A stretch of DNA of 42,699 bases from Planctomycetota bacterium (GTDB lineage Bacteria > Planctomycetota > Phycisphaerae > WQYP01). Both the position numbers and the translations under genes were made by a program. The stretch lies in contig JAKBMM010000024.1 of the NCBI GenBank assembly GCA_021831565.1, positions 1-42,699 of the forward strand, in the 5' to 3' direction. Of this stretch, positions 21,144 through 25,499 are shown in pieces (position 1 is the stretch's first letter; the number at the start of each line of letters is the position of its first letter). The notes under the pieces are model-generated. The model searched no databases, was not told the origin of the DNA, and was given only the letters and a program-made list of their open reading frames with translations.

Positions 21144-22031
21144 ATGCGGTCAACTGGTGAATTCCGCATTGGAATCATTCAAATGCGATGTTCCACCGAT
21201 CCGGCGGCAAACCGGAAAAAGGCTGTGGAACTGATACGCCGCGCCGCCGACCGCGGCGCTCAGGTTATCTGTACCCAGGAGCTTTTCAGCGGCGAATACT
21301 TTTGCCGGCGCCAGGATCCGGAATTGTTTGATCTGGCCGAACCCATTCCCGGCCCCAGCACGCAACTGTTTGGAAAACTGGCCGCTGAACTTCATACCGT
21401 GATCATTATTTCTCTTTTTGAACGTCGTGCACCGGGCGTGTACCACAATAGCGCCGCGGTGTTGGACGCGGATGGCGCCCTGTTGGGTGTGTATCGCAAG
21501 ATGCACATCCCGGATGATCCATTGTATTACGAAAAATATTATTTCACCCCGGGCGACCTGGGCTTTCAAGCGTTCGCGACCCGCTATGGCCGCATCGGCG
21601 TGCTGGTTTGCTGGGATCAATGGTTTCCCGAAGCGGCGCGCATCACCGCCATGCAGGAGGTGAGCATCCTGTTTTATCCGACTGCTATCGGTTGGCATCC
21701 GGCGGAAAAGGCCGAATTCGGCCAAGACCAGGTGGATGCCTGGCAAACCATTCAGCGCGCCCACGCCATCGCCAATGGCGTTTATGTGGCCGCTCCCAAT
21801 CGGGTCGGCCACGAAGGGCCGGTGGAGGGTGGATTGGAATTTTTTGGCAACTCGTTTATCTGCGATCCCTTCGGGCGGTTCCTGGCGAAGGCTTCCAGTG
21901 ACGGCGAGGAAATCCTGATTGCCGCGATTGATCCGCGATGCCAGGAAACGGTGCGACGGAACTGGCCGTTCTTCCGCGATCGCCGGATTGATTCTTACGG
22001 TCCGCTTCTGGAACGATTCCGATCCCGCTAG
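21144..22031 (+). CDS. aguB: N-carbamoylputrescine amidase
   Basis: This 295-residue nitrilase-superfamily hydrolase splits N-carbamoylputrescine to putrescine, CO2 and ammonia. The catalytic triad is visible as E46 in CTQELF, K119 in YRKMHIPDDP and C156 in LVCWDQWFPE. FFGNSFICDPFGR and the N-terminal FRIGIIQMRC are also typical of the aguB branch, as is the DDPLYYEKYYFTPGD stretch. The length is normal. GGAG at 21135-21138 supports the ATG at 21144. Agmatine deiminase follows directly, so the two make putrescine from agmatine. The arginine decarboxylase that would supply agmatine is not in the window. Confidence 0.96.
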   Translation: MRSTGEFRIGIIQMRCSTDPAANRKKAVELIRRAADRGAQVICTQELFSGEYFCRRQDPELFDLAEPIPGPSTQLFGKLAAELHTVIIISLFERRAPGVYHNSAAVLDADGALLGVYRKMHIPDDPLYYEKYYFTPGDLGFQAFATRYGRIGVLVCWDQWFPEAARITAMQEVSILFYPTAIGWHPAEKAEFGQDQVDAWQTIQRAHAIANGVYVAAPNRVGHEGPVEGGLEFFGNSFICDPFGRFLAKASSDGEEILIAAIDPRCQETVRRNWPFFRDRRIDSYGPLLERFRSR

Positions 22032-22058
22032 AGTATTTCTCGAAAATTCCTTTTTCAC

Positions 22059-23273
22059 ATGAAGACGCGAAAGTTTACCATGGCTATGGTCAAGGAAATA
22101 TCGGGACGATCACTTCCGCGAACACTGGGATACCGCATGCCCGCAGAATGGGAGCGGCATGCGGCGAGTTGGCTGGCATGGCCGCATAACCACCGGGACT
22201 GGCCCGGTAAATTTGCGCCGATTCCCTGGATTATCGCCGACATCATTCGGCATATCGCTTCCGCCGAAACGGTACACCTGCTGGTACAGAATAAGTCCCA
22301 GCGGCGGCAAGCGGAGCATTGCCTGGAGAAAAGCGATGCGAATCTCTCCGCAGTACGGTTTCATCTGCAAGAGACCGACCGTATCTGGACCCGTGATTCC
22401 GGCCCGATTTTTCTCACACGCAATACTCCCGCCATCTACCCGGACAGGCGCCTCGGCGGATCTGTTAAATCCGGGACAGATCGCAACCGACGCGCAGTGC
22501 GCCCTACCGGCCGAATCGCTGTGAATCAGCGGTTGGCGGCGGTCGGGTGGGCTTTCAATGCCTGGGCCAAGTACGGTAATTATCGCCGTGACCGCCGGCT
22601 GCCGGCATTTGCCGCGGACCTGCTGGGGGTGCCGCTGTGGACACCGGCGGCAACCGATACGCGCGGACGAATCCGACGCATCGTGCTGGAAGGCGGCAGC
22701 ATTGATGTGAACGGCCAAGGGTGCCTGCTGACCACACGGGAATGTCTTCTGGCGCGGGTGCAGCAGCGAAACCCCGGTTTTTCCCGACAGAAAATTGAGG
22801 AAATTCTTCGCGATTATCTCGGTGTGGAACGGGTGCTGTGGCTGGCGGGCGGCATCGCCGGCGATGATACGCACGGTCACATTGATGACGCGGCGCGGTT
22901 TGCCGGTCCGACGCTTATTCTAGCCTGCGTAGAGCCTAACCGGCGCGATCCGAATCATCGATCATTGCGGGAAAACTTCAAAATGCTGCGATCGATGCGC
23001 GATCATAACGACCGCCCGTTTGACTTGGCGGAACTTCCGATGCCGCGGCCGGTAGTTTTCAACCGGCAGCGACTGCCGGCCAGTTACGCCAATTTCTATG
23101 TTTGCAATGCCGGAGTACTCGTACCGGTATTCAATGATCCGGCGGATTTGCCCGCCCTGCGCGTGCTGGAGCAAGTGTTTGCCGGCCGGGCAATTGTTCC
23201 CATCTATGCGCGCGACCTGGTTTGGGGGCTTGGCACGTTGCACTGTATGACGCAACAGCAGCCGGCGGTGTAA
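22059..23273 (+). CDS. aguA: Agmatine deiminase
   Basis: This 404-residue enzyme converts agmatine to N-carbamoylputrescine. It belongs to the guanidino-group-modifying fold. Family blocks are YRMPAEWERHAASWLAWPHN near the start, TDRIWTRDSGPIFLT, GWAFNAWAKYGNY, LEGGSIDVNGQGCLLTT, GDDTHGHIDDAARF, and the C-terminal catalytic cysteine in LGTLHCMTQQ. The region between the SGPIF and WAFNAW blocks is about 30 residues longer than I expect and basic (RNRRAVRPTGR), and the usual GGGNIHC is changed to GLGTLHC. Starts at 22080 or 22086 fit the family N-terminus as well as 22059. It is in an operon with aguB. A CCCGATAGC palindrome follows directly. Confidence 0.94.
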   Translation: MKTRKFTMAMVKEISGRSLPRTLGYRMPAEWERHAASWLAWPHNHRDWPGKFAPIPWIIADIIRHIASAETVHLLVQNKSQRRQAEHCLEKSDANLSAVRFHLQETDRIWTRDSGPIFLTRNTPAIYPDRRLGGSVKSGTDRNRRAVRPTGRIAVNQRLAAVGWAFNAWAKYGNYRRDRRLPAFAADLLGVPLWTPAATDTRGRIRRIVLEGGSIDVNGQGCLLTTRECLLARVQQRNPGFSRQKIEEILRDYLGVERVLWLAGGIAGDDTHGHIDDAARFAGPTLILACVEPNRRDPNHRSLRENFKMLRSMRDHNDRPFDLAELPMPRPVVFNRQRLPASYANFYVCNAGVLVPVFNDPADLPALRVLEQVFAGRAIVPIYARDLVWGLGTLHCMTQQQPAV

Positions 23274-23327: not shown

Positions 23328-23987
23328 TCAAGCGGCCTTTTTTACCCATATCCATCGACCGGTGGAACGGTCGAACCGCTGAACCCATACGCCCGCCGGC
23401 AAATAGCGCAGACGGACATGGAAATAGACAAAACCGACTTGCGCCACCGACTGGCCGGTCCGGCGGGAGACAATCTCGTAAAGACGCCGGCGTAGGGCGT
23501 TGTCCCGTCTGACAAATCGCCGCCGCGGCCCACCCAGATGCCCGCGCGGGACCAAATAACCCGTGTGCGCCTCACCGACCAGATGAGCAAGAAGCAATCG
23601 TTTAACCCGTGGAAAATTTAGCCGGAGTTTGCGGAGAACCTGCGCTTTGGTCAACGACCCGCCGGCGGCGTCGGCGAACACAACGACTCTATCGCCGCCG
23701 GGAATCAGGCTGGAACTCGAACCGGGAGAAACCTTCCCCCGCGTTCGTGTGGCTGGCGGAGCGACCGGCTTGGACGGCGCGGTTTCCGCCGGCGCCGCGC
23801 CGGTGATGTATCGCATGTCATCGTGTGCTTCCTTAACCACCAGGGTCAGCTTGCCGGTGAGCTGAATATTCACCTGCAACGGTTTAGGCTGGCGAAGCAC
23901 CACTTCATTGTGGGTTCGGATGCATCCCGTCATGAAAAAAAGTCCCGTGGTCAAAATCACCGCAAAAATGGCGTGACGCCGGATCAT
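23328..23987 (-). CDS. Lipoprotein with fused YnbE-like and YdbL-like (DUF1318) parts
   Basis: This 219-residue protein has a lipoprotein signal (positive start MIRRH, hydrophobic core, lipobox FMTGC with Cys at about 22). Directly after it comes a YnbE-like segment: NEVVLRQPKPLQVNIQL, comparable to the EV...P...IN pattern of the E. coli lipoprotein YnbE. A Pro/Ser/Thr-rich linker of about 50 residues follows. The C-terminal half matches the YdbL pattern: LVGEAHTGYLVPRG, then RLYEIVSRRTGQSVAQVG, ending PAGVWVQRF and GRWIWVKK. In E. coli ynbE and ydbL are separate neighbours of ydbH; here they appear as one chain, with the YdbH-like gene upstream. It is predicted to be anchored in the outer membrane and to act with YdbH in envelope phospholipid transport. 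Confidence 0.78.
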   Translation of the reverse strand: MIRRHAIFAVILTTGLFFMTGCIRTHNEVVLRQPKPLQVNIQLTGKLTLVVKEAHDDMRYITGAAPAETAPSKPVAPPATRTRGKVSPGSSSSLIPGGDRVVVFADAAGGSLTKAQVLRKLRLNFPRVKRLLLAHLVGEAHTGYLVPRGHLGGPRRRFVRRDNALRRRLYEIVSRRTGQSVAQVGFVYFHVRLRYLPAGVWVQRFDRSTGRWIWVKKAA

Positions 23988-24048
23988 GGTTGATCTCCTG
24001 TTAAAGCTTGCTGTTCATTGTAACGCTGTTGTGCCGGAGCGGTAGACC

Positions 24049-24076
24049 GGTGAGTTTATAGCGGTGAGTTTATAGC
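24049..24076. repeat. Perfect 14-bp tandem duplication
   Basis: GGTGAGTTTATAGC occurs twice back to back (24049-24062, 24063-24076) in the 217-bp spacer between the YdbH-like gene and the lipoprotein gene. A plus-strand TATAAT at 24108-24113 lies nearby but faces no gene on its strand. Confidence 0.85.
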
Positions 24077-24204
24077 GGATCATCTGATACCGCTTATGTT
24101 TTTGGGTTATAATAGCCCGACGATGGGCCTCTCGATTGGCGGCACAACCCCACGCCGGCCGGGAGCGTTATCCTGCCCGAAAAAATTTCCGTTCGCGTGG
24201 CGTC

Positions 24205-25269
24205 TCAGAAGGAAAAACGCCGCACCAGGACGATCAATCGTCGCAGGGGTAGATGCGGCAGGGGAATAGTCAGATGAATGGTTTTGAGGCCACCGGCTTT
24301 GACTAGAAATCGCTTTCCGGCGAAAGTCACGTAGTGGGGCTGAAGATGGCCCGGATTGCCCGTTCCCCGCAGAAAGTGCAGAAAAAGAGTGGTTTGATCC
24401 TTCGCCGCCACCATGCGTATATCTTCCTGTCGGTAAGGATATTCCTTTAGTTCCTGCATCGTCACATACGCCATTCCCGGCCCGTAAGCGCCGGCGAAGG
24501 CTCGCTCCAAAATTGGAGTATCACGAACCTTCAACAGACCGGGACCGTCGGAGCGTAAATCGATCGACCCGATGATCTCCCCGCGCCAATTAAACGAAAG
24601 TTTTGCCTGCAAATCGGCCTTTCCATCAATACTCAAGTGGCGCGGAGCGAGCAGGGAGAAAAGAGTTTTCTGATTCAACTGATGGATGTCAATCGCCAGA
24701 TCGCCGTCCGCCCGCCGCAGAAAGTAGTTCCCTTTCATGGTGATGCGGGCCTTGCCCCACCGGGCCTGAAAATCAGCCACGCGCAGTATCCCGTTCCGGA
24801 TGCGCCATTTCGCATACCCTTTACGCAAATGCTGTGCATGCCAAACAAGGCCGGCGAATTGGGTCGCACCGTGATCCAGGCGAATGTGGCGAATGGTCGC
24901 CGGTTGACGCCAGATGTTTAATTGGCCGGTGGTTTGGAATCCTTCGAGTGTAAAGACCGCGGGTCTTCGCGCCGGCCAGCGGATTTCGTCCGCTCCCAAC
25001 CGCAAAGTTCCATGGCACGATTGAATTCGTTTATTTCCGGAATATTTGATCGTACCGTTGAAAATGATCGCCCCGTTGGCAATGTGAACATGGGCGCCGC
25101 CAAATTTCACGGGGAGTGTTTGATTGCCTGTGGACACGGGTTGGGTTGAAACGGACAAATTCCGGCGCAAGGACCGGACCAGGTGTGGTCCTGTGGTCGG
25201 CGGCAAGCCGGTGCTTAACGGTGCACGGCTGGTAATTGTTGCCAGAATGACGAACCACCACAACCACAC
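24205..25269 (-). CDS. YdbH-like AsmA-type envelope protein
   Basis: About 354 residues with one N-terminal membrane segment (WLWWFVILATI). The rest is predicted periplasmic and beta-rich, with repeating strands of the kind seen in bridge-like lipid transport proteins. The C-terminal third (SIDGKADLQAKLSFNWRG, then IDLRSDGPGLLKVRD and later MQELKEYPYRQEDIRM) resembles the end of the YdbH family. E. coli YdbH (about 880 residues) is much longer, so this is a short member. The start is uncertain: no ATG lies near the membrane segment, and I place it at GTG 25269; the frame itself is open to 25551 across the small gene upstream. Context supports the call: the next gene downstream is a YnbE-YdbL fusion. 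Confidence 0.62.
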   Translation of the reverse strand: MWLWWFVILATITSRAPLSTGLPPTTGPHLVRSLRRNLSVSTQPVSTGNQTLPVKFGGAHVHIANGAIIFNGTIKYSGNKRIQSCHGTLRLGADEIRWPARRPAVFTLEGFQTTGQLNIWRQPATIRHIRLDHGATQFAGLVWHAQHLRKGYAKWRIRNGILRVADFQARWGKARITMKGNYFLRRADGDLAIDIHQLNQKTLFSLLAPRHLSIDGKADLQAKLSFNWRGEIIGSIDLRSDGPGLLKVRDTPILERAFAGAYGPGMAYVTMQELKEYPYRQEDIRMVAAKDQTTLFLHFLRGTGNPGHLQPHYVTFAGKRFLVKAGGLKTIHLTIPLPHLPLRRLIVLVRRFSF

Positions 25270-25313
25270 GCAAGTGTGCGATCGGGATATTATTGTTGCG
25301 CATTGGGACCGCG

Positions 25314-25499
25314 CTAGATCCACCGCGCATGAAGCGGTGGTCGAGAATGCACCACCTGTGGTAGCCAGGTTATGGGCTGGATACCAGATATGCGCGCCAA
25401 GTATGCACGCAAATCGTTCTCGGGAAACTTTTCCAGAAATTCCAGTGCGGCGGTGTGATTGAGTTTGAGAATTGCTTCGATCAGCTCGCGCTTGCTCAT
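25314..25499 (-). CDS. Small conserved-looking protein, 61 residues
   Basis: The protein starts MSKRELIEAILKLNHTAALE and continues FLEKFPENDLRAYLARISGI. It is helical and amphipathic, with a Pro/Trp-rich tail. AGGAG five bases before the ATG is a strong ribosome binding site and argues that it is a real gene. Its stop lies 44 bp before the proposed YdbH-like start, so the two may be one transcript. Similar short N-termini seem familiar from planctomycete hypothetical proteins, but no function is known to me. Confidence 0.68.
   Translation of the reverse strand: MSKRELIEAILKLNHTAALEFLEKFPENDLRAYLARISGIQPITWLPQVVHSRPPLHARWI

Follow-up and report, generated by a model that had tools for sequence, protein, structure and literature searches.

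Does the minus-strand locus at positions 23328-25499 of the planctomycete sequence analyzed here encode a lipid-transfer unit of the YdbH-YnbE-YdbL type, in which two of the three components are joined in a single lipoprotein? The window, i.e., the whole 42,699-nucleotide stretch of DNA that was analyzed (contig JAKBMM010000024.1), contains three reading frames in this region, all located where a preliminary description, made from the sequence alone, had placed them. In that description, the locus was interpreted as a short YdbH homologue adjoining a fused YnbE-YdbL lipoprotein, the whole being led by a small gene. The interpretation was partly supported: it is right in its core and wrong with respect to the small gene, and it needs caveats at the level of Pfam matches. 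An NCBIfam hmmscan returned no matches.

The partner of YdbH in Escherichia coli is YnbE, a lipoprotein of the outer membrane (PMC12977461, PMC11784454). The window shares with the E. coli ydbH-ynbE-ydbL genes (b1381-b1383) the three components and the gene order, as well as the succession of lipobox and YnbE-type strand and the YdbL fold. In contrast to E. coli, in which ynbE and ydbL are separate, the window encodes the two as one chain, and the E. coli YdbH of 879 residues has a counterpart of only 354 residues, without the anchored N-terminal two thirds. In the work of Kumar, Davis and Ruiz from 2024, YnbE is said to augment the groove of YdbH by a strand, and YdbL reportedly has a chaperone role and prevents YnbE multimerisation. 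To our knowledge, the case for physical cooperation between YnbE and YdbL has so far rested on work in E. coli.

The fused lipoprotein

The lipoprotein gene (23328-23987, minus strand) encodes a single chain of 219 residues, as described previously, according to its open reading frame, its PF07027 match and its conservation within the GTDB family (Phycisphaerae), where 22 of 28 genomes contain it. An assembly error can be dismissed as the source of the fusion, since these relatives share it. Its layout was likewise borne out. On the minus strand, a lipoprotein signal peptide with the lipobox FFMTGC, the lipidated Cys22 and Ile at position +2, all read directly from the sequence (23922-23987), is followed by the YnbE-like segment (residues 22-63; 23799-23924), a Pro/Ser/Thr-rich linker (residues 64-112; 23652-23798) and the YdbL/DUF1318 domain (residues 113-219; 23331-23651). 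The linker was delimited from the alignment, in which its length varies among genomes, and from its low model confidence (pLDDT < 50 for residues 68-110).

The C-terminal half of the lipoprotein is YdbL, in agreement with the original annotation. Residues 136-212 matched PF07027 (DUF1318) with 33 bits, above the gathering cut-off of 27. In an AlphaFold2 model, for which 20 homologues served as input, residues 111-219 were predicted with confidence. A Foldseek search with this model matched 28oj, the crystal structure of E. coli YdbL (entry titled 'Probable chaperone-like protein YdbL'), at E 6.3e-4, with a probability of 1.00, a TM-score of 0.86 of the target and an rmsd of 1.9, and the same entry was matched at E 3e-6 in a sequence profile search with the lipoprotein. 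Unlike the soluble periplasmic YdbL, which has no lipobox, the domain is carried here on a lipoprotein.

The proposed YnbE-like nature of the N-terminal half stood up in profile-profile comparisons with YnbE sets, but not at the level of Pfam. Thus, of the two family profiles applied to the two halves, DUF1318 (PF07027) was detected, whereas PF13617 (YnbE) gave no match to the fused lipoprotein at E <= 1; neither PF13617 nor a 14-sequence YnbE profile, searched across the genomes of relatives, recovered the fused N-terminus. In hhalign comparisons, the segment scored 15.3-16.0 against proteobacterial and planctomycete YnbE, values reached by 0-2 of 200 column shuffles in which the cysteine was kept in place. 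When YnbE sequences from the Phycisphaerae were added, the score was 20.7 versus 14.9 for the best shuffle (0 of 200), at an absolute probability of 45-51%; the set behind this score includes a second fusion, described below, and the score was partly helped by that. Cys22 is invariant in the family alignment (A4), and the stretch that follows it is strongly conserved among the family homologues (C-[IL]-x-TH-x-[DE]VV-x4-KP[LM]-x-V-[ND]-[VI]-x-[LV]; segment consensus, CLRTHNDVVISQPKPLEVNVNLNGKLTLVV-DDM-YI-G). Moreover, the segment KPLEVNVNLNGKLTL resembles EPIQVDVNLNLKVDK in the YnbE of a neighbour. As judged from these alignments, the likeness to YnbE is supported, and it is short and weak, which is what a segment of some 40 residues would lead one to expect.

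The YnbE-like segment resides in the fused chain rather than in a stand-alone lipoprotein of about 60 residues, and searches with PF13617 and the YnbE profile found no separate YnbE in the genomes of the fused type. In the monomer AlphaFold2 model, residues 41-62 of the lipoprotein form a helix, with no strand. This helix could represent a stored, chaperoned state, or it could be evidence against the strand model.

The short YdbH homologue

The adjoining upstream gene (24205-25269, minus strand) encodes a protein of 354 residues if translation begins at the GTG at 25269. The frame remains open upstream of this codon, and the extension would bring the total to 448 residues. Substitutions relative to the congener L148 at codon positions 1, 2 and 3 number 33, 19 and 47, respectively, within 24205-25269, versus 7, 6 and 8 in the upstream extension, where the third position shows no excess. 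Since substitutions of the coding type are confined to 24205-25269, the 354-residue form is right, which bears out the shortness of the YdbH-like partner noted earlier; the exact GTG start is uncertain.

Similarity of this protein to the C-terminus of YdbH, also part of the preliminary description, was recovered when profiles were compared with each other and by way of an intermediate sequence, but not by Pfam, since PF11739 (YdbH) matched neither the 354-residue protein nor its homologues at L137 and L141. With HMMER, the profile of the short family gave marginal matches to full-length YdbH (best E, 0.03). With hhalign, the short family and 12 canonical YdbH sequences were aligned over 219 colinear columns, corresponding to positions 637-871 of 936, at E 7.7e-5. 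The score against a set of canonical YdbH C-termini was 37.6, compared to 21.5 or less for 150 shuffles and 23.4 for the reversed control; against a broad YdbH alignment, the reversed control was not negligible (36.7 against 42.3). The intermediate is a 1018-residue protein from another genome of the same family (G001), which has an N-terminal hydrophobic segment. Its C-terminal end matched the short family at E 1.9e-13 and 1.8e-16, and the canonical YdbH profile matched the protein at E 6e-8. In view of the colinear alignment and of the link through this protein, the 354-residue protein is best read, from sequence comparison, as homologous to the last third of YdbH. Canonical YdbH has an N-terminal inner-membrane anchor and a length of about 700 residues or more, neither of which applies to the window protein; in place of the long anchored N-terminus, the latter has a signal peptide that is probably cleaved.

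The short homologues range from 324 to 425 residues in length, and 29 positions are invariant among 11 sequences. By inspection, they carry apparent cleavable signal peptides of the Ala-X-Ala type, which render an inner-membrane anchor unlikely. The AlphaFold2 model of the short YdbH predicts a meander, similar to a beta-groove, of about a dozen long strands (8-18 residues each) of antiparallel type, with pLDDT values mostly of 60-93 for residues 53-340, and a fold search of the PDB with this model gave no match at E <= 0.001.

The possibility that the N-terminal two thirds of YdbH are encoded by a separate gene was considered and rejected, as the 1018-residue query retrieved mainly the short YdbH proteins and, weakly, the N-termini of long AsmA-like proteins. 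The 1018-residue protein (L171, 4967-8032, minus strand) is itself AsmA-like, and its C-terminus is of the type seen in the short YdbH; matches to the short family in three of its stretches point to internal repeats. DUF1318 and YnbE were not found in the G001 genome.

Co-occurrence, distribution and neighbouring genes

Among the 28 genomes of the family, the short YdbH occurs in 20 of the 22 that carry the fused lipoprotein versus none of the 6 that do not (Fisher p 7e-5, for related genomes and uncorrected for phylogeny). The lipoprotein gene adjoins the short ydbH in about 12 genomes, genera g4 and g6 have the two genes unlinked, and the remaining cases lie at contig ends. The co-occurrence also holds where the genes are unlinked.

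The fused lipoproteins found with the short YdbH group in a single clade (100/97), which among the genomes searched is confined to the family of the window. When 85,000 genomes were scanned with the alignment of the fused lipoprotein, using family-specific peptide patterns, all records returned were planctomycete, and those named more closely belonged to the Phycisphaerae. Other planctomycetes, including other families of the Phycisphaerae, possess the canonical ydbH-ynbE-ydbL as separate genes. Their operons (L093, L095, L203 and L206) contain the same parts as the window, but as three genes and with a full-length YdbH. The YdbH proteins of L093 and L095 pass PF11739, and addition of the YnbE sequences of their operon group improves the match of the fused segment.

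A second YnbE-YdbL fusion was detected at locus L207 of a genome (G371) from a different family of the Phycisphaerae (f6), in which the lipobox, a YnbE-like strand and DUF1318 are combined in one chain as in the window. This gene occupies the reverse complement of 1321-1806, and its ATG overlaps the TGA stop codon of ydbH (ATGA); the long Pro/Thr linker of the window protein is lacking. In a congener (L203), ynbE and ydbL are separate. The DUF1318 domain of L207 was placed among the unfused YdbL sequences of the Phycisphaerae (95/77, on a long branch), so that the second fusion is apparently independent of the first, as far as the phylogenetic placement indicates. The survey of fusions in planctomycetes called for in the preliminary description has yielded one family-wide clade and a second fusion in another family of the class. 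The arrangement, which had been regarded as undescribed as far as known, is real, but it is not unique, being found across the GTDB family and again in the second family. No description of a YnbE-YdbL fusion was found in the literature searched, a search outside which the 2024 work of Kumar, Davis and Ruiz lay.

A looser analogue is present in further planctomycete families (f86, f87, f22, f54, f63 and f79), in which a lipidated cysteine, a beta-type stretch (CAVITVNVYFP) and DUF1318 share one chain, encoded beside an AsmA/DUF748-like protein of about 1000 residues (range, about 900-1060). In these lipoproteins a short strand is followed by a helix-like stretch, their likeness to YnbE is weak (13.9, reached by 0 of 100 shuffles), and the long partner, in the one case tested, belongs to DUF748/AsmA and not to YdbH. 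At four other loci (L099, L104, L112 and L114), DUF1318 proteins without a lipobox were observed near AsmA-like proteins of about 1400 residues, which by eye are not YdbH-like, and no YnbE was found between the two genes. A plasmid-borne gene of the YdbL family from Phenylobacterium zucineum (L123, 5480-5797, plus strand) lies beside genes for a DnaJ-type and a universal stress protein, with no YdbH or YnbE annotated nearby.

The small gene (25314-25499, minus strand), which had been thought to lead the unit, encodes a genuine protein of 61 residues (MSKRELIEAILKLNHTAALEFLEKF...), of which only 3 differ in L148. Homologues, mostly in single copy and usually not beside ydbH, were detected in 52 of the 61 relatives from this class. 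The class-wide presence of the gene, for the most part at other sites, led to its rejection as a component of the unit, and it is judged to lie outside it. On the other side of the locus, a nitrilase-family gene precedes an agmatine-deiminase-like gene, both named by eye, at 21144-23273 (plus strand), and the pair is convergent with the lipoprotein gene. A nitrilase-family gene also adjoins the YdbH-type gene of G001 (L171, 8080-9057).

A putative rearranged lipid-transfer unit

The reading that we favour, with a probability of roughly 0.55, is that of a rearranged YdbH-YnbE-YdbL lipid-transfer unit, in which a lipidated YnbE-like strand at the outer membrane would extend the groove of YdbH, with a tethered YdbL acting as its chaperone in cis. 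The lipidated Cys22 would anchor the lipoprotein, most likely in the outer membrane. The YnbE-like strand (residues ~35-52) would pair with the edge of the C-terminal beta-groove in the short YdbH, in the manner reported for YnbE and YdbH of E. coli, such that lipid leaving the groove would meet the membrane. On its flexible linker of 50 residues, the YdbL domain might shield the still free YnbE strand until it docks and thereby halt runaway YnbE polymerisation, with the fusion setting the ratio of strand to chaperone at 1:1. The natural fusion of YnbE and YdbL in two lineages constitutes independent evidence that both proteins cooperate physically, and it renders the idea of a cis chaperone directly testable.

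Other explanations can be offered for the same set of genes. A soluble short YdbH could, together with the fused lipoprotein, work outside any bridge and serve locally in the periplasm as a carrier or buffer of lipid, docked to the outer membrane. The apparent Ala-X-Ala signal peptides, with no inner-membrane anchor, and a groove of some 14 strands, too short to span the periplasm, would both suit such a carrier. We nevertheless regard it as rather unlikely, as the relatives of established function are all thought to be bridges, we know of no soluble AsmA-like carrier, and the genome encodes long AsmA-like proteins with which the short YdbH could pair. Also conceivable, though improbable in our estimation, is a DUF1318 protein with an unrelated lipidated N-terminus, which would have converged with YnbE on a generic strand behind the lipobox. 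Such convergence would be consistent with the lack of a PF13617 match, the absolute hhalign probability of 45-51% and the helix predicted in the segment. It is difficult to reconcile, however, with an hhalign score reached by none of 200 shuffles, the parallel with the YnbE of the neighbour, the failure to find a separate YnbE in the fused-type genomes, the clearer fusion in the same class (L207), and the linkage and co-occurrence of the lipoprotein with YdbH. Finally, the excess of third-position and paucity of second-position changes between congeners, the 29 invariant positions in 11 sequences and the retention of the short YdbH in 20 of 22 lipoprotein-bearing genomes argue strongly against its being a decaying remnant of a full-length gene, with the lipoprotein now serving another role. 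The persistence of a full-length homologue in G001 and the unlinked genes in g4 and g6 would accord with decay, but this explanation appears highly improbable.

In the favoured rearranged lipid-transfer unit, the short YdbH would retain no more of the bridge than its end at the outer membrane, and a separate AsmA-like protein anchored in the inner membrane would consequently be the probable source of the rest; by itself, the short YdbH is far too small and cannot span the periplasm. We suggest tentatively, as a possible and by no means probable elaboration, that the bridge is split: the anchorless C-terminal groove of YdbH and the strand/chaperone lipoprotein would together make up a docking cap at the outer membrane, one that can be detached and that fits onto an inner-membrane bridge formed by a separate AsmA-like protein. 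The short, anchorless YdbH shows that the outer-membrane end of a bridge can persist alone, which raises the question of the minimal part required for lipid delivery, and its combination with the fused lipoprotein provides a natural test of how the parts of a bridge cooperate. TamB gave no match in the genome of the window. Contigs C77 and C71 of the same genome encode two long AsmA/DUF748-like proteins of about 1190-1331 and up to 1519 codons (L186, 5277-9272, plus strand; C71, 58216-58662, minus strand), which are candidate inner-membrane bridges, the assignment of either as the long partner being a guess.
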